The notes beneath the pieces were generated by a model that saw nothing but the letters and a program-made list of their open reading frames with translations, did no database searches and was not told the DNA's origin. A DNA stretch of 64,000 nucleotides from Stramonita haemastoma (taxonomy: Eukaryota; Mollusca; Gastropoda; Neogastropoda; Muricidae): contig CM060324.1 in assembly GCA_030674155.1 (NCBI GenBank), positions 60,111,780 to 60,175,779 of the forward strand, written 5' to 3'. This document shows positions 1 through 52,910 of the stretch, one piece after another. A program made the position numbers and the translations under genes. Numbering within the stretch: the first letter of the stretch is position 1; the number at the start of each line of letters is the position of its first letter.

Positions 1-160
1 TATTTCTGTACACAAAACATTCAGGGAAATGGAGTCAGTATCCCTGTATACTCCAGGGATAAAATGTCCTTTAGACAAACACACCAGCAGATATTCAAAC
101 CCCTGCCTTCAGTTACCGTCAGACCACAAGCTTGACGTTCTTACCGCTCAGCCAAACCTC
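1..160 (-). mobile_element. tRNA-headed SINE fragment
   Basis: On the minus strand, starting near 155, there is a good RNA polymerase III A box (TGGCTGAGCGG) followed by a B-box-like GGTTTGAATATC. Downstream comes a stretch resembling the family A core (CCTGGAG...ACTGACTCCA). The element runs off the window, so its 3' end is unknown. It is a decayed SINE, not a tRNA gene: the B box is mutated and no cloverleaf is evident. Confidence 0.55.
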
Positions 161-194
161 CAGAGTCGTTGAGAAAGGTCAGTGTTCTCTATCA

Positions 195-1050
195 GTGGTG
201 ACAAACTGAGTGCAGTGCAGGGTGCTGTACTTACATGTTGTACTTGTCACAACAAACTAAGTGCAGTGCAGGGTGCTGTACTGACATGTTGTACTTGTCA
301 CAACAAACTAAGTGCAGTGCAGGGTGCTGTACTTACATGTTGTACTTGTCACAACAAACTAAGTGCAGTGCAGGGTGCTGTACTGACATGTTGTACTTGT
401 CACAACAAACTAAGTGCAGTGCAGGGTGCTGTACTGACATGTTGTACTTGTCACAACAAACTAAGTGCAGTGCAGGGTGCTGTACTGACATGTTGTACTT
501 GTCACAACAAACTAAGTGCAGTGCAGGGTGCTGTACTGACATGTTGTACTTGTCACAACAAACTAAGTGCAGTGCAGGGTGCTGTACTGACATGTTGTAC
601 TTGTCACAACAAACTAAGTGCAGTGCAGGGTGCTGTACTTACATGTTGTACTTGTCACAACAAACTAAGTGCAGTGCAGGGTGCTGTACTGACATGTTGT
701 ACTTGTCACAACAAACTAAGTGCAGTGCAGGGCGCTGTACTTACATGTTGTACTTGTCACAACAAACTAAGTGCAGTGCAGGGTGCTGTACTTACATGTT
801 GTACTTGTCACAACAAACTAAGTGCAGTGCAGGGTGCTGTACTTACATGTTGTACTTTCACAACAAACTAAGTGCAGTGCAGGGTGCTGTACTGACATGT
901 TGTACTTGTCACAACAAACTAAATGCAGTGCAGGGTGCTGTACTTACATGTTGTACTTGTCACAACAAACTAAGTGCAGTGCAGGGTGCTGTACTTACAT
1001 GTGTACTTTCACAACAAACTAAGTGCAGTGCAGGTGTGCTGTACTTACAT
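195..1050 (-). repeat. 51-bp minisatellite containing a 5' splice site
   Basis: About 17 head-to-tail copies of a 51-bp unit. The rightmost copy overlaps the end of the CUB2 first exon (exon end at 1049). Read on the minus strand, each unit carries ACAACAT followed by GTAAGTA (9 copies, counting the real exon junction) or GTCAGTA (8 copies), which is the exon-intron junction of that exon. Two units have small deletions (near 856 and 998). 51 is divisible by 3, so long spurious reading frames arise on both strands; none is a gene. Confidence 0.95.
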
Positions 1051-1145
1051 GTTGTAGTTACCAGGGTAGTTGGGAGAGGTCAGTGTCTTGTTGCGGCCCT
1101 CTTCCACACTGAGGAAACCATTATGGGGACATGCCATTCCGCTCT
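1049..1145 (-). CDS. CUB gene exon 6: start of second CUB domain
   Basis: Last exon of the gene visible here. It follows a TTTCAG acceptor (AG at 1147-1146) and ends at a GTAAGTA donor (1048-1042). Entering in phase 1 it completes a Glu codon joined from exon 5, then reads SGMACPHNGFLSVEEGRNKT and LTSPNYPGNYN, and leaves in phase 2. This is the N-terminal strand of a CUB domain: first cysteine in ACP, glycine-rich turn, and the hallmark SPNYPxxY. Size, entry phase and exit phase match exon 3, the first CUB1 exon, so the two domains share intron positions and probably arose by duplication. An N-K-T glycosylation site is conserved in both. The rest of CUB2 lies left of the window. Confidence 0.88.
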
Positions 1146-1289
1146 CTGAAAGTGGAGCATGAGTGACATCTGTGTTTAGTTGAACAACTGGAAGGGAGGT
1201 TAGTACCAGAATTTTATCGATCAAAAAGTTTATACACGACTGGCTGTTTGCATGCACACGAAGAAACAAACATGAACCAATATATACAT

Positions 1290-1545
<256 letters not shown>

Positions 1546-1699
1546 TAATACGTGCATGTGTTTGTATGCTGACAAAATAAAACTGATGGGAAGAAGGGAG
1601 TTGGTTTCAGTTTCTACAAGACGCCGATGTATGAGGAGCATATTTTTTGTCCTATTATCCTCATTTCTGCATCTTGTGGTTCCCTTCAGTATTGATTCT

Positions 1700-1990
1700 C
1701 TCAACTTTGTGCTGGCGTTTTGGATGGAATAGCATCTTCATTTCCGATCAAGTTGTCCTGGTGCCAAGGCTGTCGCTGAATGCAGGCCAATAGCAATTCC
1801 TTCTTCAGTTGGTCTTCGAATTGTTTTCCCGAAGTGACACAGTCTTGTCGCATAAAGCCAAGGATGGACTGGAAGTAGCATTGCTGGAAGCCCTGCAACA
1901 GCCTGATGTGCTTGCAGTGCAGGAACCACGTTTCTGAACCCGGCAACAGCGCAGGGACCAACACAGGTAAGTCTGTAGTCATGGGGTTTG
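1700..1990 (-). mobile_element. LINE 3'-ORF fragment (RT C-terminal region)
   Basis: The minus-strand reading contains GSETWFLHCKHIRLLQGFQ and CYFQSILGF..QDCVTS, the pattern LLYGxETWxLxxxHIRxLxxFxxxCLRxILGIxWQDxVT found after the reverse transcriptase of RTE-like LINEs. It is short, has no catalytic RT motif left and sits inside a CUB-gene intron. Relic; family assignment tentative. Confidence 0.6.
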
Positions 1991-2424
1991 TGGACAAGCA
2001 GAAGGAAGGCCTGTGCTATACTTTTGTGCGTATATGTCTGAAGACCCTACTGGCCCAGGCAAGTCTGTTGTCAACGTCTCCACTGACATTTGCGTTGTTG
2101 GAGATGATGAAAGGTCAACTGCTCCATTGCGCTCAGACCAGTGCTATCCATGCTGAATTGTTAATGGCTGTGCACTTTTGGTGGGAGGGTGCTGGCATCA
2201 CTTGTGTCTTTTCCAGCTCATGGTTATTCCAAAGCCTCTGATTACAGCTTGATCCCATCAGTAACCGATGCTCTGCAGTGCTTCCAAGAATTCGTGTCTC
2301 CATGTGCAGTGACATACATTTGTGCCACATTTTTTTTCTTTCTTCAGCTACAGCTCCGAGGTTCACCGATGGTGAGATTTTGTGTATGCAACTATTTTTA
2401 CCTGCCATTAAGGTAGCTACATTC
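1991..2424. other. Intronic sequence with a short SINE F remnant
   Basis: No gene recognised. About 2331-2395 on the minus strand matches the 3' end of family F (GGTGAACCTCGGAGCTGTAGC). The rest is unassigned intron sequence. Confidence 0.4.
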
Positions 2425-2705
2425 TGACTTCGGGGATGGTGTCTTAACACGATGCTTGTGTGCATGGATTTAAACAAAATTGTCATCCATTCCTACCGGC
2501 ATAAAATGGCCTACTCTTCCAAAAGGCGGAATGGGTTCGTAATGTGTGTGCTAGATGTTCTGCGTGTATTGGCACAAGAATCTCAGCTGAAAGTCTCACC
2601 TGAAGGACTTTTTCGGGGATTGGCGTCAGTGTTGATGTTAACTCCAGGGCAACATGCCCTAAAATGGGTGCCACGCTCTAACTGCTAGGCTATACCTTCC
2701 CCTGT
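2425..2705 (-). mobile_element. SINE, family A/D core and tRNA-like head
   Basis: Reads as a family A core on the minus strand: a degenerate head (CTAGCAGTTAGAG), GTTAACATCA, then the TTCAGGTGAGACTTTCAGCTGAGA core version and the CCGGTAGGAATGG motif. The far end (2425-2470) carries the TCGTGTTAAGACACCATC segment typical of composite family D (compare 20836-21160 and 44720-45195). Confidence 0.7.
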
Positions 2706-3030
2706 TTACTACACATTAAACAACTATGACAACACGAGAAACTGAATGTCCCTAGTCAGATTCTGCAGGCTTCTGCTGCCACTCTCCTCAGGTCACACAA
2801 GTGCTCACAGACTGGGACAAAAGGAAGTGGCGCTGCTTTGGTGGCAACACACTCTTTGTGGGGAGAGCAAGCCTAACTTCGTGCTAAAACGTGTCACATT
2901 TCTAAGTGATATACGATACCATGCAATGTAATACATGAATGCAGCACAATGCACAACCCTACCCTACATAACGCTACGTCACGCTATGCGATGCATTGTA
3001 CTACACCACACTATCACCCTGCCAGTATTT
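2706..3030. other. Intronic sequence, no feature seen
   Basis: Unique-looking intron sequence. 2935-3010 is rich in short degenerate ATGC/CTAC repeats. I see no exon signal or recognised element. Confidence 0.3.
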
Positions 3031-3672
3031 CTGTCTTCACTGCTCACCTTTCTTTCTTCACCGTCTTCACTGCTCACCGTTCTGTCTTCACTGCTCACGC
3101 ATTTCTTAGTTTTCTTCCACTGCTTCACCAGTTCTGTCTTCACTGCTCACCATTTTCTATGTCCCTCTTTCACTGCTCACCATTTGTCTTCATTGCCCAC
3201 CATTCTGTTTTCATTGCTCACCATTCTTCACTTTTCTTCACTGCTCACCATTCTTTTTTCATTGCTCACCATTCCTCACTTTTTTGACTGCTCACCGTTC
3301 TGCCTTCGCTGCTCACCATTCTGTCTTCACTGCTCACCATTCTTCAGTTTTCTTCACTGCTCACCGTTCTGTCTTCGCTGCTCGCCCTTCTGTCTTCACT
3401 GCTCACCATTCTTCGGTTTTCTTCACTGCTCACCGTTCTGTCTTCACTGCTCACATTCTTTCTTCGCTGCTGACCATTCTGTCTTCACTGCTCACCATTC
3501 TGCCTTCAATTCTGTCTTCACTGCTCACCATTCTTCCCTCACCGTCTTCACTGCTCACCATTCTGTCTTCACTGCTCACCATTCTGTCTTCACTGCTCAC
3601 CATTCTGTCTTCACTGCTCACCATTCTGTCTTCACGGCTCACCATTCTGTCTTCACGGCTCACCATTCTTTT
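3031..3672. repeat. 21-bp minisatellite (TTCACTGCTCACCATTCTGTC)n variants
   Basis: Tandem array based on CTTCACTGCTCACCATTCTG, nominal 21-bp unit, with many 15-45 bp length variants on the left and a homogeneous run at 3540-3670. It lies in CUB-gene intron 5. Because 21 is a multiple of 3, all frames give spurious repetitive peptides. Confidence 0.93.
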
Positions 3673-3715
3673 TCCTTTGTCTGCACATACAGCCTTCCTT
3701 TCCGCTCTACAACAT

Positions 3716-3890
3716 TAAAAAAAAAATCTGCCTGCATAATCAGGCAAGCCAGATGACGTCAACAATGACGAAGAGAAAGAGAAGAAGAGACACCCCCCCC
3801 AAAAAAAAAAAACCCACCACCAAACAAATACAAAAAAAAACACACCACCAAACAAATACAAAAAACCCACCCCAAACCCAAACAAGAGAC
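3716..3890. repeat. A/C-rich simple sequence
   Basis: Poly-A (3716-3727), then runs of C and A with a duplicated ACACCACCAAACAAATAC segment (about 3814-3860). Low-complexity intron sequence close to the exon 5 donor. Confidence 0.8.
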
Positions 3891-3967
3891 AGTTAGGGTG
3901 AGCTCATCAGGACAGTGCGATCCAAATTGACTATAAACAAGACCGTGCCCCTCCTTCCCTCTCTTAC

Positions 3968-4129
3968 CGCTCCCTGCAGGCACCGCAGTCACCAGCAGCT
4001 GGAACCCTTTCTTGGTGACGCTGTAATCGCTGGTGAACTGGAGGAACATCTGACCACCACTGCTGGAGTACTGAGGATGGTAGGTCGTGCCGCACAATCT
4101 GGCCAGTTGGTTGTTATTTTGGGGGTGTC
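3968..4129 (-). CDS. CUB gene exon 5: end of first CUB domain
   Basis: Bounded by a GGTTTCAG acceptor (AG at 4131-4130) and a GTAAGAG donor (from 3967). It enters in phase 1, completing a Gly codon, and leaves in phase 1. The reading covers protein residues of about 95-149: HPQNNNQLARLCGTT, SSSGGQMFLQFTSDYSVTKK and GFQLLVTA. These are the CUB fourth cysteine (LCG), the SSGxxMxLxFxSD strand and the GFxxxVTA ending. The Asp in TSD occupies the third calcium-ligand position of calcium-binding CUB domains. With exons 3 and 4 it closes a complete CUB of about 118 residues. A short linker (VPAGSE) leads into CUB2. Confidence 0.93.
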
Positions 4130-4264
4130 CTGAAACCACACACCAGCAAGGGCTGCAGAGAGAACTAGAGGTCAGTCTTCTGGCAATGACAGAAAGTGCA
4201 GGGTAGGGGGCCTACCGCGTACAGCTTGAAGCAAAGGGAATGCTGCGAGATACTGTCATCTGCT

Positions 4265-4348
4265 ACTCTTTTCGGTGTTTTTTTTTTAATAGATATCTAT
4301 AATCATTAAAGCGTATGCACGAGTGCGCGCGCGCGCGCGCGCGCGCGC

Positions 4349-4433
<85 letters not shown>

Positions 4434-4448
4434 ACACACACACACACA

Positions 4449-4493
<45 letters not shown>

Positions 4494-4495
4494 TA
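4265..4495. repeat. Compound microsatellite (GC)n-(CA)n-(TCA)n
   Basis: (GC)n at 4325-4348, (CA)n at 4349-4450 with one CATA interruption, and (TCA)n at 4450-4493. Located in intron 4 of the CUB gene. The alternating purine-pyrimidine part exceeds 120 bp. Confidence 0.95.
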
Positions 4496-5164
4496 GCAAT
4501 AGATCTAATCCAATCATGTTGTTTATAGCCCCGTCGACCACACAGGCCATATCGGGGCTGTCACCTCGTCACATTTAAAACTCAGATTAAAACCATGCAA
4601 CTAGATCAAAACGGGGTATAAAACCAACTCAACTGTCCTTGCTTGTATCGACGCCAGGGTCAGCCCAGTATGGGCACCGCGTCGTGGGAACAACCACATC
4701 GATCACACATAAAATGAGATAAAACCAAAACCAGATTCCTTAAAACAACCTTGTCCTTAGAGACCGACTATAGCACTTTCACTCATATCAGACCGAAAAA
4801 GCCAGATTCTCTAAAAAAGTTAAAAATGGTTTCTGGTGAAACATCCCGAAATCATCATCATCATCAGTGCTGCTGCAGCAGCAGCACTATCACACTTTTG
4901 AACACACATAATTATACATTAAAAAAAAACACCCAAGAACTTAGCTCTGTTGGAAAAAGCCCGCATCACTGTTTAATCACAACGTATATAGCATCTAGCC
5001 TCTTCAGTGAGCATACAACAAAAAAACTGAAACTTACCAAATTGGCACCATTCTTCTCTGTCATACCAAAACTGCTTCGTTATTCCACTTATAGCAAGTT
5101 AATGCAGACAACTGTGACGAGTTGATTAAAACCTAACACTACTGACCGTACACTGCATCGTTAT
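4496..5164. other. Intronic sequence, no feature seen
   Basis: Moderately AT-rich intron DNA with repeated ...AAAACCA... stretches and a small (CAT)n/(GCA)n patch (4850-4888). No recognised element or exon. Confidence 0.3.
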
Positions 5165-5458
5165 AGGGTAGGTGTCGCCCTTAACCTATGTGGTCGTAGG
5201 GGAGCGAGGCATCAGAGACCTCTGTTTCTTCAGGGGCAAGCATATTGAGGGTGGCTCCCATCTCCTCTCCCTCACTGCTTTACCTTCCCTGTCCCTAAAG
5301 AGGGCAGGTACCCTTTGACAGCTGGGTGAACTTGCGGACTGTACTGAAGCAAAGGAGCGTAAACGATCACCCATCCACTTGGTAACCATGCTCGATGCTG
5401 CTTAACCTTGGCTGGGGGAAAGCGAGTGCTCTGACCACTGAGCTATCCCGTCCCCAAG
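5165..5458 (-). mobile_element. SINE family B (tRNA/5S hybrid head), full copy
   Basis: On the minus strand the element begins GGGGACGGGATAGCTCAG, a perfect A box. A 5S rRNA-like stretch follows (TTAAGCAGCATCGAGCATGG, then AGTGGATGGGTGATCG). The body contains CCCAGCTGTC, a GGGTACCTGCCCTCTTTAG equivalent and AGGTAAAGCAGTGAGGG. The 3' end reads GGTTAAGGGCGACACC. It lies in intron 4 of the CUB gene. Confidence 0.85.
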
Positions 5459-5674
5459 CATCGTTATAGCTTTACCACACGGTTTTTGTTGCCTGCTGTT
5501 CATCTGTGTTTGTCTGAGATGAGCGATTTATATTGCACCGCTGTCGTTTCCTGAGCTTACAACCAACCCTCACTCCACCTCCCCCCACCACACCCCCACC
5601 CCACCTCATGGCCAAAACCTAAATAAAAATGTTTCATGTTGTTATTGTAGAAGTAGGACAATCGCAATACTAGT

Positions 5675-5960
5675 CATGATGATAATAGCGAGAGCATTAT
5701 CATTATCATCATCATCATCATCATCATCACATCAGCAGCAGCAGCAGCAGCAGCAGCAGGAGCAGGAGCAGCAGTATCGTTATCATCATCATCATCATTA
5801 TTATCATCATCACCATTATCATCAGTGTCATCATTATCATCATCACCACCACCTTCACGATGCCCCCCCAAAAAACAACAACAACAACAACAACAACAAA
5901 AAAACAACAAACAAAAACCCCACACCAAAAAATAACCCCCAAACCATGAAATGGAAAGAC
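5675..5960. repeat. Trinucleotide block (TCA)n, (CAG)n, (CAA)n
   Basis: (ATC)n at 5698-5727, (CAG)n at 5731-5775, further imperfect (ATC)n to about 5850, then (CAA)n at 5874-5910. It ends less than 60 bp from exon 4's donor. Open frames here are polyHis/polyGln/polyAsn artefacts. Confidence 0.93.
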
Positions 5961-5987
5961 TGAGAAAGCAAAGCAGTGAGGCCTGAC

Positions 5988-6112
5988 CTCCATCATAAAG
6001 ACGAAGGGCGTCAAACTGGCAGGAGCCGGCATTCTCCAGGTCAAAGTCCACCACGTACAGGCGAACCACCTGACCCGCCTGGGCAGTCACTCGCCAGGTG
6101 CAGTTCTGGAGG
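5988..6112 (-). CDS. CUB gene exon 4: middle of first CUB domain
   Basis: Acceptor GACATCAG (AG at 6114-6113), donor GTCAGG (from 5987). It enters in phase 2, completing Asn from exon 3's AA, and leaves in phase 1. The reading is LQNCTWRVTAQAGQVV, then VVDFDLENAGSCQFDALRLYDG: CUB cysteines 2 (NCTW) and 3 (SCQFD), the hydrophobic FDLE strand and the LYDG turn. Glu of DLE and Asp of QFD are the first two calcium-ligand positions, so the site looks intact. Sequence just upstream of the acceptor is an unbroken (TG)n tract (6121-6152, CA on the plus strand), which replaces a normal pyrimidine tract. Confidence 0.94.
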
Positions 6113-6118
6113 CTGATG

Positions 6119-6154
<36 letters not shown>

Positions 6155-6204
6155 CCGTAATCAATCAATCATAGACAATTGATATTTATTTATTTGTTAT
6201 TTAT

Positions 6205-6492
6205 TTATTCTTTTATATCGAGGATAATGGAATAAGCACTCATATGCTTTTTACATCCAGTACCCGTGTGTATGCAGTCTTGTAAATCTTGTCATCTGTT
6301 CCCACCGGCACACAATGGCCTTCTCTTATGAAAAGCACAATAGGATTTAACGTGTGCGCAAGATGTTTGCGTGCGTTCGCACACGGGGACTTGGTTTACA
6401 GTCTCATCCGGACTTGTGGGGAGAGCGGAGTCAGCACTGATATTAACTCCAGGAGAAAATTCCCCCTATGAACGGGAATCGAACCCGGTATA
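6205..6492 (-). mobile_element. SINE family A, head-truncated
   Basis: The tail lies at the left (TATCGAGGATAATGGAATAAG on the plus strand), then the conserved CCCACCGGCACACAATGG, the ATCCGGACTTGTGGGGAGAG core and a B box seen as GGGAATCGAACCC. The A box is missing. An AT-rich TTTATT patch follows the tail. Confidence 0.85.
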
Positions 6493-6559
6493 CTGTACTA
6501 GTAGAGTTTGTGCATCACCTGCCACTTAACGGAAAAAGCTGCCATAGCAGAGGATGACC

Positions 6560-6600
6560 TTCTTCTTGTTGTTGTGTTGTTGTTGTTGTTGTTGTTGAGG
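6560..6600. repeat. (TTG)n microsatellite
   Basis: Short (GTT)n run at 6564-6597, intronic. Confidence 0.85.
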
Positions 6601-6699
6601 TAAATTCTGGCCTGATGAAAAGAATGACAACTTGAAATAAGCGTAATACCAGTAAGATTCCGAACAACGACTACCAAGCAAACAAACACCATATCAGAT

Positions 6700-7445
6700 C
6701 CTGTGCTTCATCCAAGTGACCAATTCATCACGTGAAGTAATCATCCTGTGCATCTCACCCAACGTACTAGTTGGTCACCGCTGAAGTAATCATCCTGTGC
6801 ATCTCATCCAAAGTGACCAATTCATCACCGCTGAAGTAATCATCCTGTGCATCTCATCCAACGTGACTAGTTGGTCACCGCTGAAGTAATCATCTTGCGC
6901 TTATTATCCAATGTTACCTGTCTGTCAATAAATAACAATGTATCCTGTACATGTTATCAAAGATAATCAGTTTTTCAACGAACACGGAATAACCCTTTAT
7001 CTTTTATCAAACAATACCAATTTGTCTTGTACTTATCATCAAACGTTATCAGTTTGTCAACAAACTAGGGTTTAACGTGTATCTATCCTGTACCTACTTT
7101 TAAACTCTAAGTTTGTCAATAAATGAGGGTTTACCATCATGCACTTATTATCAATCGTTACCAGTTTGTCAACGAATAAGTAATCATCTTGTAATCAATT
7201 TATCAAACGTTGTCAGTTTGCCGACAAATAAGGGTTTATCCTGTACTGATAAGTATGAAACGTTATCAGTTTGTCATGTTTAATATCCTGTCCTTATAAT
7301 CAATCGTTATCGGTTTGTCAACGACTATAGTAATGATCTTGTGTTTATTATAAAATACGTTATCATGTTTGTTAACGAATAAGGGTTTATCTTGTCCGTA
7401 TTATAATCAATGATTACAAGTTTGTCAACGAATACAGAAGTTGAT
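6700..7445. repeat. Diverged tandem array of about 50-60 bp units next to exon 3 donor
   Basis: A degenerate tandem repeat with roughly a dozen units. The left part is more uniform (GCTGAAGTAATCATCCTGTG, repeated at about 6783, 6832 and 6881). The right part follows TATCA..CGTTATCAGTTTGTCAACGAATAAG. The array fills most of intron 3 and ends about 15 bp from the exon 3 donor at 7462. Unit length drifts, so copy number is approximate. Confidence 0.8.
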
Positions 7446-7462
7446 AATCATGGTGTACTTAC

Positions 7463-7553
7463 TTCGGGTAGGGGAGAGGGTAATTGGGCGAGGTCAGAGT
7501 CTTGTTCATGCCCTGCTCCGCCGTTAAATTCCCTTCCACGGGGCAAGCAGTGC
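7463..7553 (-). CDS. CUB gene exon 3: start of first CUB domain
   Basis: Acceptor GTTGCAG (AG at 7555-7554), donor AAGTAAGT (GT at 7462-7461). It enters in phase 1, completing Gly with exon 2, and leaves in phase 2. The reading TACPVEGNLTAEQGMNKT, LTSPNYPLPYP gives residues of about 23-52: first CUB cysteine (residue 26), N-L-T and N-K-T glycosylation sites, and the SPNYP hallmark. Joined with exon 4 the strand reads YPNLQNCTW, an excellent CUB match, which confirms both splice sites. It is the paralogue of exon 6 in length, phase and sequence. Confidence 0.94.
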
Positions 7554-7621
7554 CTGCAACTGTACCACATCACCTTCTCTCTAAACACACATCTGGCACA
7601 CACAGGATCCAAGTGTGCAGC

Positions 7622-7623
<2 letters not shown>

Positions 7624-7693
<70 letters not shown>

Positions 7694-7885
7694 GCGCGCG
7701 CCGCTCACGCACGCACGCACGTACACATACACACAATCACACACACATATACACACACACACGCACGCGCGCGCGTACACACACGCAAGTACGCACGCAC
7801 ACGTACACATATACACAGACATATACAGAGGCACAGACACACAAACACACACGCGCCCCCCCCCCCCCCCCCCCCCACACACACA
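7624..7885. repeat. (CA)n-(CG)n-(CGCA)n block and poly-C
   Basis: (CA)n at 7624-7679, (CG)n at 7680-7701, a mixed CA/CGCA/CATA zone to 7852, then a C-run of about 24 (7853-7876). In CUB-gene intron 2, about 70 bp upstream of exon 3. Confidence 0.93.
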
Positions 7886-8087
7886 GAGGATTCAAGATTT
7901 AATTCCTTTCCCCCTTTTGTGGTATGGAGGATTACAAACGAATTCAACAGTAGAATAAACCTTAACAGCAATACTGTATTACCAAAAATAATATCAATAC
8001 TAACAGGAAACCACACACACACACACGCACGCACGCACGCACACACGCTTCAACATCCGCAAATACAGAGAACGTAGTGTTATCCCA

Positions 8088-8330
8088 ATTAGCATAATTT
8101 TAAGTCTTTCTGGAAGAAAGGCAGAATAAGGGTCCAAGAAGGCTGAAAGTAGACAAGGAGGTGACAGGAAGAAAATGCTCAACAAGGCAGAAACAAAGAG
8201 AGGGACAGAAAAGAGGGCATTCCTAGCACAGAATTTCCTGAAGGTGGGGGGGGGGGGGGGATGCTACCTATACTGACAGGCCCGCAGCATCCCCACGAGG
8301 TAAAGACGTTTCAGTACCACTTTTAAGGGG
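8088..8330 (+). mobile_element. Repeat family G, 5'-truncated copy
   Basis: Shares TAAGTCTTTCTGGAA, CAAGAAGGCTGAAA, AAGGAGGTGACAGGAAGAAAA, GGACAGAAAAGAGGG and ACTGACAGGCCCGCAGCATC with the copies at 12425 and 55990. Contains a G-run (8247-8260). No coding capacity or polymerase III box seen. Class unknown. Confidence 0.7.
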
Positions 8331-8680
8331 TACCCCTCCCCATCAACATGAATCAAACTGCAATGCATCCACTTCATAAGAAAGGTGATGCTTCTGATAC
8401 AGACAATTATAGGGGTATGTCCCTTTTAAGTATTCTTAGTAAAGTAGGCATATCATTAATAACAGATTGATCTCGCGGGTAGGTGCAGAATGGTTCTATT
8501 TGTGAAGCCCAGGCTAGATTCAGCAGAGGCCGTTCAACAGCAGACCACATACTTAATGTACTTATAAAAAAAACCTATTTGCTTAAACAAAGAAACATTA
8601 TATAGAGTTGATTGATTTTGAGAAAGCGCACTACGGTACTGTGAATGACAGTGTTTTGTCTTCTGTACTGCTTTGTAGCA

Positions 8681-9212
8681 GGATGGTTAAGACGTTCGTC
8701 TGTCAACAAGTAAACCGTGAGGTTCTGTGTTCGTTCCCAGCCTCGCCCTTTCTTCCCATTTGACGAATAAATCGAACTGGATGGCCAAGTTTTTTCGGAT
8801 GAGACTATAAACCGAGGCCTCATGAGCGAACGTACACAGAATAAGCACTCACTAAAAAACCGTTCCGCCTTTTAGAAGAGCAGGCCATTATGTGCCGGTA
8901 GGAGCGGATAACAACTAAATAAAAAACAGCATTCACACAGGTGTTGTGTTTCGACATGATCCCGGAGGAAAAATCGGGGAGTTGGAGTCCCCAAAGCGGT
9001 TTGGGGCTGTATATGGCAACGTTCTGGCGGCTTCTGCGACGGCACTGGACCCATTCGTATCAGCGATTGTCTTCCCAATGGACCATTCCACCTACGTGAA
9101 GAGGTCTGCCACATGGGTAATAGCTCGCCCTCCATACTCACTCACGCAGGCTTTGTGCTCTAGAGCCTACAGCGCAACTCCATAGTCTTCCGAGACTGAC
9201 GGAAGCCTACTC
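8681..9212 (+). mobile_element. Composite SINE family D, long copy
   Basis: tRNA-like head (TAGCAGGATGGTTAAGACG, then GTTCGTTCCC at 8681-8745). A family A type core follows (CGGATGAGACTATAAACCGA, 8797-8816, and TATGTGCCGGTAGGAGCGGA). After that comes a separate 3' half: CAGGTGTTGTGTTTCGACAT, GGAAAAATCGGGGAGTTGGA and GTCTTCCGAGACTGACGGAA. The same order, inverted, is at 44720-45195. Inserted in the LINE relic. Confidence 0.75.
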
Positions 9213-9648
9213 ACTGCTTCGTGTATGCACTAAGTGTAGAATTTTCAGGATGTTTCCGCATTCAATGTTATCAATTAACGAACTGGCAAATACATTAATA
9301 TCAAACGTATACATGTGATTTTTGAATCCAGTGAGACTGAGCGGTATCTTATGCTATTTGCTGATGATCTCACCTTGTAAGTATCGACCACAGTAAACCT
9401 ACAGCATTAACTAATAGCCTGCGGAAAGAAACAGAAGGAAAAAGATGGACTAATGTTTACAGTTGACACCGACAAAAAATCATTCGTTTTTATGAAAGGC
9501 TGCTTCCTTGGTACCAGAGAAAAGTGGTTTTTAAATGGAAATCTATTGCAAGTAGTTAACTCATATAAGTATTAGATACTACTTTCTCTACTAGAAATAG
9601 TTCCACAGCTGCCAGGAAGAAGTAAAAGGTAAAGTATGTGTGAACAGT

Positions 9649-9998
9649 GGGGGACGGGATAGCCTAGTGGTCAGAACATTGCGCTCGCAATTTGACGACC
9701 CGGGTTCGATTCCCGTTCGAGGAGATTTTTCTCCTGGAGTTAACATCAGTGCTGACTCCACTCTCCCTCAAAGTCCTTCGGATGAGACTATAAACTGAGG
9801 CCCTGTGTGTAAACGCACGCAGAACATCTTGCACACACGTTAATCCTGTTCCGCTGTTCGTATGAGTAGCATCGTGTGCCGGTGGGAACAGATAAGATTT
9901 ACAAAACTGCATACACACGAGGACTGGATGTAATAAAGCATATGAATGCTTATTCCATTATCCTCGATATAAAAAGAATGAATAAAAAAAAAAAAAAG
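9649..9998 (+). mobile_element. SINE family A, full-length reference copy
   Basis: Head GGGACGGGATAGCCTAGTGG (A box) and GGGTTCGATTCCC (perfect B box, about 9702-9714). Core: TCCTGGAGTTAACATCAGTG, CTTCGGATGAGACTATAAAC and CGCACGCAGAACATCTTG. Distal part: GTGTGCCGGTGGGAACAGAT and GGACTGGATG. Tail: TTCCATTATCCTCGATATAA, AAGAATGAATAAA and poly-A. The layout matches SINEs with a conserved central domain known from molluscs and other invertebrates (MetaSINE or Nin-DC type); which superfamily is not settled here. Confidence 0.92.
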
Positions 9999-10544
9999 TA
10001 CCATATGCAGTTTGACAAAAACTGGAAGAAAATCTCCTGTTTTCTTTAATTTAAACTTTTTGACACTGAAGTTATCCCACTGGTTCAGTGTGCCTCTGAA
10101 GTATGGAGACTCAAGTCGAGCAAGTTCAGCGTCATGCTTGAAAAGGGTTCCTGCTTGTGCAAAATAAAACTGTCAATGATGTTGTATATGGTGTAGGCCT
10201 ACTAGGTTTGTTTCCTACTGAGGATTACAGCTAATGTGACACAGGTTAAGTACTGGCTACGACTGTTAAAACAGTCTCAAGCACTAGCCACGATTGTTGA
10301 AACAACCCGAGGGAGGAATTCTTAAATAATAATTTTTAAAAAAGCATGCAGAATATCATTGGCAAAGCATAAAAAGCCATGCGGCATGACTAAATTACAT
10401 TAAGAATATTCTTGTTGACAATGGTTTTTAACAAGTTTGGCTACTTAGATGTGGCTACAAAAGCGTTTTTATGAAAGAGCTGAAAGAGAGGTGACATCAT
10501 AATTTCTGTGACAATTGGCGTAACCACCCGGGTTCTAAGCCACC

Positions 10545-27955: not shown

Positions 27956-28310
27956 CTGTGATTTTCTGTAAGTGCTTTCCAGCTGACGGTTTATATCAGG
28001 AGCTTTCATGTCACCTTTGACACATCCTTGACGTGTTGTGATGGACGCCAGCAGAAGGTGTCCTGCAGCCAGTTTGGGAATGTGACCCTCCTTCCTCTCC
28101 AGAGGCTTGAATCACCAATAGCAACACCAAACCCTCACACCAGACTGCTACCCAAGATGCTAAACCCGTATTGACCAGTCAGATTGCCACAGCAGGAAAG
28201 AGGGAGAGAGGTTGCACACCCTTGCTGGCTTCAGGTAAGCAGTCCACAGTGTATGGTGTATGGCTTAACGAGTCCTCTGACCCACAGCAAGAGAAGCACG
28301 GGTACTCCAC
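27881..28310. other. Unassigned DNA with a long C-run
   Basis: C-run of about 28 (27926-27953). The remainder has no recognised element. Short open frames lack motifs. Confidence 0.35.
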
Positions 28311-34735: not shown

Positions 34736-38340
<3,605 letters not shown>

Positions 38341-38750
38341 TTTATTTGAAGCTTGAATAACAAAATTTAGATTGATGATGTAGGCTCACACCAAGACTGA
38401 TGTGGGATAAGGAGTCACAGTATACCTATATAATATGTACGCTGTGTATTAAAGATGCTCTTATGCCGTGTTGAATATCAACAATTATTATCATAAACTG
38501 ATGGCCTTCACATCCACTAAAAGGTGATTGGTTTTATCTAACAGAAAAAAAAAAGCGTAGCACAATGGTGTAACTATAAACCGATCACTGAAGCACAATC
38601 ATCAGTCAAAACAACAATCAAGAGAACTAAACAAGCAGAAAAATCAATGGGTAAAACAACAATTAATTAGAATAATAATAATAATAATAATAATAATGAT
38701 AATAATAATAATAATAATAATGTGTGTGTGTGTGTTTGTGTGTGTGTGTA
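38341..38750. other. AT-rich DNA with (AAT)n and (GT)n
   Basis: No gene seen. (AAT)n at 38668-38720 and interrupted (GT)n at 38721-38750. Confidence 0.6.
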
Positions 38751-43184: not shown

Positions 43185-44435
43185 CAGTTTTAATCCTTGG
43201 TGTTTGCTGAAAGACTGAAGCCACAAGTAGAGGCTATCATTGCTGAGGAACAAACAGGTTTCAGAGCAGGACGTAGCACAACTGAACAGATATTCATCCT
43301 CAGAATACTCCCTGAGCGGTACCTTCCACACCAACAAGACCTCTACCACGTTTTTATTGATTTTAAGAAGGCATTCGACAGGGTATGGCATGCAGCCTGG
43401 TGGGCAACCATGAATTTGTACAGCATCAATGCAAACCTGATCAGGGTCATCAAAGAGCTGTACAACAAGGCCACCAATGCAGTGTACTACAACAGCAACA
43501 TTGGAGAGTTGTTTCGAACGACAGTTGGAGTAAAGCAGGGCTGTCTACTCTCACCCACTCTTTTCAACATCTTCCTTGAGAGAATCATGGCTGATGCACT
43601 GAAACATGGATCAGTCAGCATTGGTGGCAGAACGATTACAAACCTCCGCTTCGCAGATGATATTGACGGACTAGAAGGTTCAGAACAGGATCTTGCCAGC
43701 TTAACAGAACATCTGAACAATGCCTCTAAAACATACGGCATGGAAATCAGTGCAGAGAACACGAAACTGATGACCAATAACGCAAAGGGCATCAGTACTG
43801 ATATCAGGGTCAACAATCAGAAGCTGGAAACGGTTCAAAGCTTCAAGTACTTGGGAACTGTTGTATCAGACAAGAGGTCCATAGCCAGAGGTAGTATGCA
43901 GGATTGCACAGACAATAAGAGCACTGTCAAAACTGAACACAATCTGGAAAGATAAAAATATTTCACTCACCTCCAAGATAAGACTAATGCGCTCCCTTGT
44001 CATATCCATATTCCTGTATGCCTGTGAATCGTGGACCCTGACTGCTGATTTGAAGAGAAGAGTACAGGCGGTAGAGATGGGATGCTTCCGGAGACTCCTT
44101 GGCATCTCCTACAGAGACCACATAAGCAACAAAGAAGTTCATAACAGAGTCTAGCAAACCATTGGTCCCTACGGAAACCTTCTATCAATCGTAAAGAAGC
44201 GTAAAATAAATGGTACAGGCATGTAACAAGATCAAAAGGACTTGCAAAGACAATACTGCAAGGCACTGTCCAAGGAGGAAGAAAAAGAGGCAGACCAAAG
44301 AAGAGATGGGAGGACAACATCAGCGAATGGACAGGCCTTGAACTCAATTAAACTTTGAGAAAGGCAGAACAACAGAGAGAGGAATGGAGGGAACTGGTTA
44401 TCAAGTCTTCAGGGGTGCCTCCACGGTCGCCAGAC
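43185..44435 (+). mobile_element. RTE-type LINE, 5'-truncated, nearly intact RT
   Basis: Long frame 43197-43955: EEQTGFRAGRSTTEQIF, DFKKAFDRVWHAAWWATM, TTVGVKQGCLLSPTLFNIFL, LRFADDIDGL (catalytic YADD-type box), YGMEISAENTKLM and FKYLGTVVSD. A frameshift near 43885 moves the rest to another frame: VVCRIAQTIRALSKLNTIWK, RLMRSLVISIFLYACESWTL, CFRRLLGISYRDHISNKEVH, a stop near 44152, then KKRKI.WYRHVTRSKGLAKT and GRKRGRPKKRWEDNI. It ends AKSS-like VIKSSGVPPRSPD and runs into (GATA)n. The endonuclease part is missing. Few lesions, so a young insertion. Confidence 0.94.
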
Positions 44436-50772: not shown

Positions 50773-52910
50773 AAAATGGCACATTCACGGATTTACCCTA
50801 CATGTACTCGCATTAACAAAAAAACAAGATGAAGTAAAATAGAAATGAAGAACCTTATCATATCCCAAAACAGCAAAAGACCAGCACTAGAGTCAGAGAT
50901 GAGTCAATAAAATAGGCAATCAATTTTGATCAGTGGTCAGGGACAAGAATCGGATTAAAAGGTTGTTTTGAGCAACCTTTAAAGGAGGAATAGAGTCAGT
51001 GTGTCTTATTTCAGAGGGAAGTGCGTTCCAGAGAGTGGGACCTCTCCGTGCTGGTGGTGTGTGTGTTGTTGTGTTTGTTTGTTTTTGTTTGTTTTTACTT
51101 CGGGAACTCTCAAGATTCTAGTGTCAGAGGATGAGCGGAGTGGTCTGTTTGGGTGGTACACAGAAAGAGTATCAGAGAAGTATGCTGGAACTTTGTTCAA
51201 GAAGAAATCATGACAATGCATCATAACTTTGTACTGGATACGAGCTTGGATTGGAAGCCAGTGCAGATTTCGCAAAACAGTGTGATGTGATTACGCTTCT
51301 TTGTTTTGAGTACCAATCGGGCAGCTGAGTTTTGTACCTTTTGTAGTTTCTCTATTAAAAGCTTGGGACAGCCTGCAAGCAGGGAGTTTGCATAGTCAAG
51401 CCTAGATAGAACAAGGGCACAGACGAGTTTCTTGGCTGTATCTACATCGATATACATTCTGATGTACTGATCTGACGAAGCGCAGTATAAGTTGAGCGGC
51501 AAGTCTGTGAAACATGTTTCTCAATTGACATGGTATTGTCATGATGAATACTAGATTGCACGCTGATGGTGAGAAAGAAATATCTGATTTTCCAACAGGG
51601 ATTCAACTGATAAAGAAGAATGAGTGGAGTAAATCAGCAGGGCTTCTGTTTTATCGTCATTTAATTTCAATTTGTGTCTAGTCATCCAGGATTTCACGTG
51701 GGATATACAATTTTGCATGATTTCAATAGTATTGTTGACATTATCAGGATGGCATTTAGAGTAAAGTTGGAGTCATCTGCAAAAGACTGATTTTAGATAG
51801 AGTGACTGCTAATGAGGTGTTCAGTGGCTTGGTGTACATGATGAAAAGAATGGGTCCCAAGACTGATCCTTGTGGTACGCCAAACGAGAGGTTTGCTGGT
51901 GAAGACTTGAACTCATCTACGATAACGGTTTGCATTCGATCAGTTAGTTCTGAAACCACTTCAGTGCTGTCCCGCAGACACCAAAGTGTTGTTGGAGAGC
52001 TTGGTACAGAATGGTGTGATCAATTTTATTATATGCAGCTGATAGATCCAAAAGAGTGAGGACAGAGATATTTCCATAATCTAGAGCAAGTAAGATATCA
52101 TTTGCAACTTTCAAAAGTGCTGTTTCGGTGCTGTGCGAGGGTCTGCATGCTGACTGGTTTGGAGGTAGAAGAAAATGTGAGACAAGATGTTCAAAGAGCT
52201 GATCCAGTACAAGTTTTTCAAGGATTTTTGACAGGAAGGGCATGTTGGAAACAGGTCTGTAGTTCTTGAGGATGTTTGGGTCAAGAGATGACTTTTTGAG
52301 CAGAGGTTTTCCAACGGCATATTTGAAACTAGAAGGGACAACATCTGTGGATAGACTCTGATTCATTGTCTGTGTAATAACAGGTAAAATATCACTTAAG
52401 CATTCAATTAGAAAGGGTGTTGGAATGGGGTCAAGTGCGCGTAGTGGGTTTGGATTTAAGGATAATCTTACGGACTTCATCTGCGTAACTAAGCGAAAGG
52501 AAGACAATGGAGTAATATCTGATACTGGAAAAGGGCTGAGGGTCTTGAGCTGAGAGGGTTGTTGAGAGATGGTCAAGCTCACGTCTAATGTCAGCAACTT
52601 TTGCCACAAAAAAGTCAGGAAAATCTGTGGTAGCATACTGACTGGGTGGGTGGTGGGGAGGGGAGTGTTTTGGTTTTTCCACACAATTGGCCACAAATAT
52701 CAAACAGTTGTCTGCTAGAATCACAAGCAGAGATCTTTGAGCTGAAATACAAGGGCTTAGCTTGATGGACAAGAGAAGTGACTCTATGCTTTGTGGTATT
52801 GTAGATCTGTTTAAAGATTTCTCATTTTGTCTGCAACCACTTTTTCTGGGCGAGACGTCTAGCTTTCTTTGCTTTACGCAACTCCTCTCTCACGCCTGCA
52901 TACCATGGTT
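50336..52910 (-). mobile_element. L2/CR1-like LINE relic
   Basis: Minus-strand order: linker and RT from about 52900: NPLRALDPIPTPFLIECLSD, ILKNYRPVSNMPFLSKILEK, LPPNQSACRPSHSTETALLK, LTLLDLSAAYNKIDHTILYQ, SFGVPQGSVLGPILFIMYTK, a frameshifted FADD near 51780, KSWMTRHKLKLNDDKTEALL, ALVLSRLDYANSLLAGCPKL, LQKVQNSAARLV and LHWLPIQARIQYKVM. The 3' UTR carries GCACTATATAAGCCTCC and an (ATT)-type tail at 50336-50362. (CA)n arrays sit in the 3' UTR. Multiple frameshifts. Confidence 0.9.
50466..50771. repeat. Two (CA)n arrays and (CG)n in the LINE 3' region
   Basis: (CA)n 50466-50533, (CGCG) 50662-50678 and (CA)n 50680-50770 with CAACA interruptions. Confidence 0.95.

Follow-up and report, generated by a model that had tools for sequence, protein, structure and literature searches.

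A 51-bp minisatellite that carries a 5′ splice-site signal 17 times opens an intron of a CUB-domain gene in the muricid gastropod Stramonita haemastoma. It occupies positions 201–1056 on the minus strand of what we call the window, the whole 64,000-nucleotide (nt) stretch analysed here (GenBank assembly GCA_030674155.1, contig CM060324.1, positions 60,111,780 to 60,175,779), and it starts 8 bp inside exon C, which encodes the start of the gene's second CUB domain (CUB2). We consider it probable that this is a boundary minisatellite of the kind described as 'mirages' in amphioxus and that it is largely neutral, with the first donor doing the work and the downstream donors giving rise to minor, nonproductive RNA. 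This reading draws its support from the array and its donors, a four-exon CUB reading, a paralogous exon, an immediate TAA stop and the pattern of variation at donor position +3. Which donor is actually used, that extended RNA would decay and that the array lacks an essential function are inferred.

Tandem Repeats Finder (TRF) delimits the array as 16.8 copies with 97% matches and 0% indels. Each unit spans the exon–intron boundary, taking in 8 exonic and about 43 intronic bases; the array sets in within the exon at TACAACAT, and the G of the first donor (donor 1) lies at 1048. A first-pass annotation, made from the letters alone, had proposed that the unit covers the end of the CUB2 exon together with its donor, and that some 17 such donors lie on one strand. 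Both points hold: there are 17 donor-like sites of the form CATGT[AC]AGTA, all on the minus strand—that of the CUB exons—and every one of the 17 copies bears a GT[AC]AGT splice signal, nine as GTAAGT and eight as GTCAGT. GTAAGT as such occurs 14 times on the minus and 15 times on the plus strand of the window, yet nine of the 14 minus-strand instances fall within the 1048 visible bp of the intron behind the CUB2 exon, and the longer CATGTAAGT is found nine times on the minus strand versus zero times on the plus strand, arguing that the clustering of donors in the array is not due to chance. The interior of the array is homogenized, while most private changes sit in the edge units 1, 2, and 17. 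Among the 14 interior units (3–16), four columns vary at all, three of them once each; the only column with a common variant is donor position +3 (six A, eight C). The 315-aa open frame on the opposite strand (202–1149, plus) is a by-product of the 51-bp period and does not indicate a gene.

The same annotation had the donors spaced by a multiple of three and suggested that an exon extended by 51n bases might keep or break the frame, with allelic variants of protein length as one possible outcome. Of the 16 donor intervals, 14 measure 51 bp. The remaining two (donor 1 to 2, and donor 4 to 5) are 50 bp long, which leaves donors 2–4 offset from donor 1 by 2 modulo 3 and donors 5–17 by 1 modulo 3; not one of the 16 later donors shares the frame of donor 1. 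Moreover, when the extension is translated in the phase set by exon C (phase 2), the reading ...GNYN continues at once with ATG TAA. This TAA, the first in-frame stop, lies within the GTAAGT of donor 1 and, if the ATG is taken as codon one of the extension, is codon two. Neither the spacing nor the frame-keeping suggestion survives; for the allele at hand the latter is refuted, and we regard protein-length variants as extremely improbable. Given the immediate stop and the lack of in-frame donors, the downstream sites of this allele can, as predicted from its sequence, only yield a truncated CUB2 or RNA that is decayed, and not a lengthened protein. Gain or loss of whole 51-bp units would not be expected to remove donor 1 or its TAA. 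The stop would precede the exon junction by 46 nt when donor 2 is used, by 97 nt with donor 3 and by more with each later donor. RNA carrying such stops is expected to decay, the donor 2 product perhaps excepted.

The gene model places four exons on the minus strand, at 7553–7463 (exon E1), 6112–5988 (exon A), 4129–3968 (exon B), and 1145–1049 (exon C), with matching phases and an open reading of 157 residues that comprises one CUB domain (Pfam, expect value [E] 1e-26) and the start of a second. Exon E1 opens CUB1 (TACPVEGNLTAEQGMNKTLTSPNYPLPYP) and has its donor GTAAGTACA at 7462; exon A forms the middle of this domain (donor GTCAGGCCT at 5987) and exon B its second part (donor GTAAGAGAG at 3967). 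Exon C (SGMACPHNGFLSVEEGRNKTLTSPNYPGNYN) is 97 nt long, enters in phase 1 and leaves in phase 2, remains open with the three exons upstream, and is bounded by a 3′ splice site ending in CACTTTCAG and by GTAAGTACA directly after CAT. Relatives of known structure in PDB were CUB proteins, cubilin being the best, for a query taken from the first-drafted reading, and a protein search for relatives returned one match (39% over 63% of the query). The queries of both searches opened with four residues (CDIS) that were later placed at the boundary of exon A or ahead of it, and the PDB query also missed the junction residue E; the Pfam value above stems from the corrected reading. The probable donor of exon A reads GTCAGG (5982–5987, minus strand). 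If the exon model is right, a C at donor +3 may thus be tolerated in this gene and need not kill a donor.

Exons E1 and C are paralogues, matching at 61% over 33 aa in a tblastn comparison (E 2.7e-8) and at 84% over 38 bases at the nucleotide level. Both end in phase 2 after SPNYPxxY, both continue with GTAAGTACA, and the position of the intron is identical. Because the CUB1 exon ends at the same place, in the same phase, and with the same donor sequence, donor 1 (GTAAGT, 1043–1048, minus strand) looks like the authentic 5′ splice site of the CUB2 exon, and this correspondence is the strongest argument for its authenticity.

How the array may have come about can be outlined as follows. A tandem duplication would have taken the terminal 8 bases of CUB2 exon sequence along with the first ~43 bases of the intron, and unequal exchange or slippage would then have expanded the product to 17 copies. 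Donor 1, attached to the full exon, would remain the authentic site and the 16 others would be intronic pseudo-donors. Should a pseudo-donor be used, the extended exon would run into the TAA three bases on, resulting in truncation or nonsense-mediated decay (NMD).

Several observations weigh against the view that donor 1 works and the others are largely idle. Its nine-base context (–3 to +6) is identical to that of the other eight GTAAGT copies, and the predicted duplex with U1 is equally strong in all nine (–6.9 kcal/mol), so that a preference for donor 1 is not explained by sequence alone. On the same scale, GTCAGT copies score –2.8, the exon A donor –6.0, the exon B donor –8.2, and a perfect consensus –14.0. 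Folding in 80-base windows rendered eight of the 16 downstream donors more open than donor 1, and three folded segments were no more stable than their shuffles (z 0.61, 0.13, and 1.26). Finally, the next exon downstream falls outside the window, in which four exons of the gene were found, and the outgoing splice is not visible.

Separately, we considered whether RNA structure hides the downstream donors. In 150-base folding windows donor 1 was the most accessible of the 17 (0.033 vs. a median of 0.0006 for the rest), and five of 200 shuffled controls reached its accessibility ratio, in a control that padded the two 50-base units to 51 and whose shuffle moved 36 of 51 places. Donor 1 was again the most open in 240-base windows; by a six-base measure of accessibility, one downstream donor exceeds it. 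A search for inverted repeats found no strong ones. Since the outcome shifts with the folding window and the segments are not unusually stable, we rejected this explanation.

The equal context of the downstream GTAAGT sites is also what would be expected if the array acted as a regulator, its downstream donors specifying a poison extension of the exon and the number of strong GTAAGT sites, the array length, and the A/C choice at +3 together setting the amount of productive mRNA. The stop distances given above would suit decay, again perhaps with the exception of donor 2, and the sole common variant of the interior sits precisely at donor +3, where a C weakens the predicted pairing with U1. However, a lone variant among 51 places carries little weight (about 1 in 50, the place having been chosen after it was seen). 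A precedent cuts both ways: for the human ABCA7 intron-18 variable number tandem repeat (VNTR), PMC5954066 associates longer arrays with reduced expression and with increased skipping of exon 19, the exon that follows, yet it also reports that the retention of a single unit is unchanged by array length and that NMD does not explain the lower expression. Given this precedent, array length might possibly tune splicing in the CUB gene as well; as a whole, we deem the regulatory explanation unlikely, and favor the largely neutral boundary minisatellite.

Even less likely, in our judgment, is that the array is an error of assembly, or that a repeat with no bearing on splicing came to lie beside the exon by accident. 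The window is indeed full of tandem repeats (141 overlapping TRF rows). The copies, however, differ in a mixed pattern—A or C at +3, two 50-bp units, variants at the edges—that is unlike a simple copying error, the array begins within the exon, 8 bp from its end, and an array of its own marks the matching boundary of the sister intron in CUB1.

This second array, a degenerate run of ~50–53-bp units at 6698–7461 (minus strand), opens the CUB1 intron from its second base. Run with loose settings, TRF reported a period of 53 bp with 8.4 copies (61%) over 7434–6997 and a period of 50 bp with 4.7 copies (81%) over 6927–6698. A profile built from eight CUB1 units matched eight stretches between 7461 and 6735, the first of which starts at the second intron base; in the search of the window this stretch, 7461–7374, scored E 5.2e-11, although it also covers one of the units from which the profile was built. 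An anchored register test of 7456–7427, framed after the pattern had been seen, was equaled by one of 5000 single-base shuffles and by none of 3910 background GT places. Together, the 7461–7374 match and the anchored test suggest that the CUB1 array is in register with its donor; a point against this register is that the piece 7475–7427 taken by itself gave no match to the CUB1 profile up to E 1000. The GT equivalent to the donor is kept in one of eight CUB1-intron units, in an alignment read by eye, the loss that one would predict for copies whose decay is harmless.

Several comparisons failed to establish a shared descent of the CUB1 and CUB2 units. The CUB1-unit profile had no match in the CUB2 array at any E up to 1000. 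The local alignment score of 24.5 was reached by 74 of 300 and 49 of 300 shuffles, and the score of a circular alignment of the consensus units by 73 of 400 and 80 of 400; an unrelated array at 28309 equals or beats the latter (10.0, 47 of 400; in reverse 12.0, 20 of 400). A donor-anchored alignment was likewise reached by 452 of 5000 shuffles and by 273 of 3797 background GT places.

It is conceivable, though we think it rather doubtful, that minisatellites anchored to a donor arise repeatedly at the boundary after SPNYP in the CUB exons of this gene. The two visible introns at this boundary (CUB1, CUB2) each open with an array of ~50 bp units in register with the donor; the CUB1 array would then be old, with its GTs mostly lost, and the CUB2 array young, half of its donors having been weakened to GTCAGT. 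If true, the pair would constitute a before-and-after series for the disarming of pseudo-donors, and might perhaps also bear on how U1-rich intron starts affect splicing or premature polyadenylation.

Just past the array, at 160–185 (minus strand), lies a 26-bp remnant of the end of exon C (ACACTGACC...CTCTGG), decayed but identical at 22 of 26 bases (E 0.004 against the window). Two of 1250 background stretches reached its score, the higher one with 46, which is the score of the CUB1 exon match, and the next unrelated BLAST match had an E of 0.053. The resemblance of 185–160 to exon C suggests to us that the end of the exon underwent a larger duplication before the array arose or together with it. 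Beyond it, positions 1–160 (minus strand) resemble, by eye, the beginning of a dispersed repeat derived from a tRNA; no tRNA gene was detected by ARAGORN in 1–10000, and among nine Rfam matches listed for the first 9–10 kb, none was at or above its gathering score. Elsewhere in the window, a compound minisatellite with a TTCACTGCTCACC-like core (3029–3671) lies inside intron B and not at a donor, and open frames at 36343–38341 (minus), 43194–43955 (plus), and 51944–52699 (minus) resemble fragments of retroelement reverse transcriptases, as judged by eye and with no search made.

The array provides a natural case in which one transcript carries one probably authentic 5′ splice site and 16 near-copies of it, eight of them identical from –3 to +6, and thereby permits a direct test of how the spliceosome chooses the first among many equal donors. 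Should RNA show donor 1 alone in use, the array would be a minisatellite of the ordinary intronic sort that does no harm. That one gene has arrays at two corresponding introns further raises the question of whether splice sites give birth to such repeats more often than other places do, and the CUB1 and CUB2 arrays offer a way to ask how fast extra donors decay.

Exon-boundary minisatellites that carry donors are already known from other animals, and the CUB2 array joins that kind. In amphioxus, PMC3087553 describes mirages as tandem repeats across exon–intron boundaries (in Adh3 and in the globin genes BflGb6 and BflGb9), with Adh3 units of 10–72 bp and edge copies that escape homogenization; these repeats are reported to be unstable in length and not to interfere with regular splicing. 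The CUB2 array resembles them in that its unit spans the boundary, its copies carry splice signals, and a homogenized interior is flanked by divergent edges, but it differs in belonging to another gene, in lying at a 5′ boundary with 17 copies, and in being known from one sequence. The ABCA7 VNTR, according to PMC5954066, has the GT of the donor of exon 18 as its first bases, a C-rich 25-bp unit, 23.7 reference copies, and hypervariable length; transcripts that retain one unit are a minor product, out of frame and with a premature stop. As in ABCA7, the CUB2 array starts at the authentic donor (authentic, that is, as judged from the paralogous exon), further donors reside in the copies, and use of the following copy would shift the frame and bring a stop; unlike the ABCA7 unit, the CUB2 unit is 51 bp long and includes 8 exonic bases. 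That amphioxus mirages reportedly spare regular splicing and that unit retention in ABCA7 is minor and out of frame favors a neutral reading of the CUB2 array. Human IFI6 (6-16) offers a different outcome: according to PMC4526556 and PMC3618361, the units of its minisatellite act as alternative splice donors, and splicing from downstream copies reportedly takes place and yields different coding isoforms. The CUB2 array likewise bears donor sites in its copies, but its downstream copies would bring an immediate stop; with the TAA read at once and 0 of 16 donors in frame, alternative coding transcripts of the IFI6 type would not arise. No report of arrays paired in this way, at corresponding introns within a single gene, came up in a literature search of listings and selected passages, which is no proof of absence. 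While the kind itself is known, the pairing of the CUB1 and CUB2 arrays is the new detail, and the part worth following.
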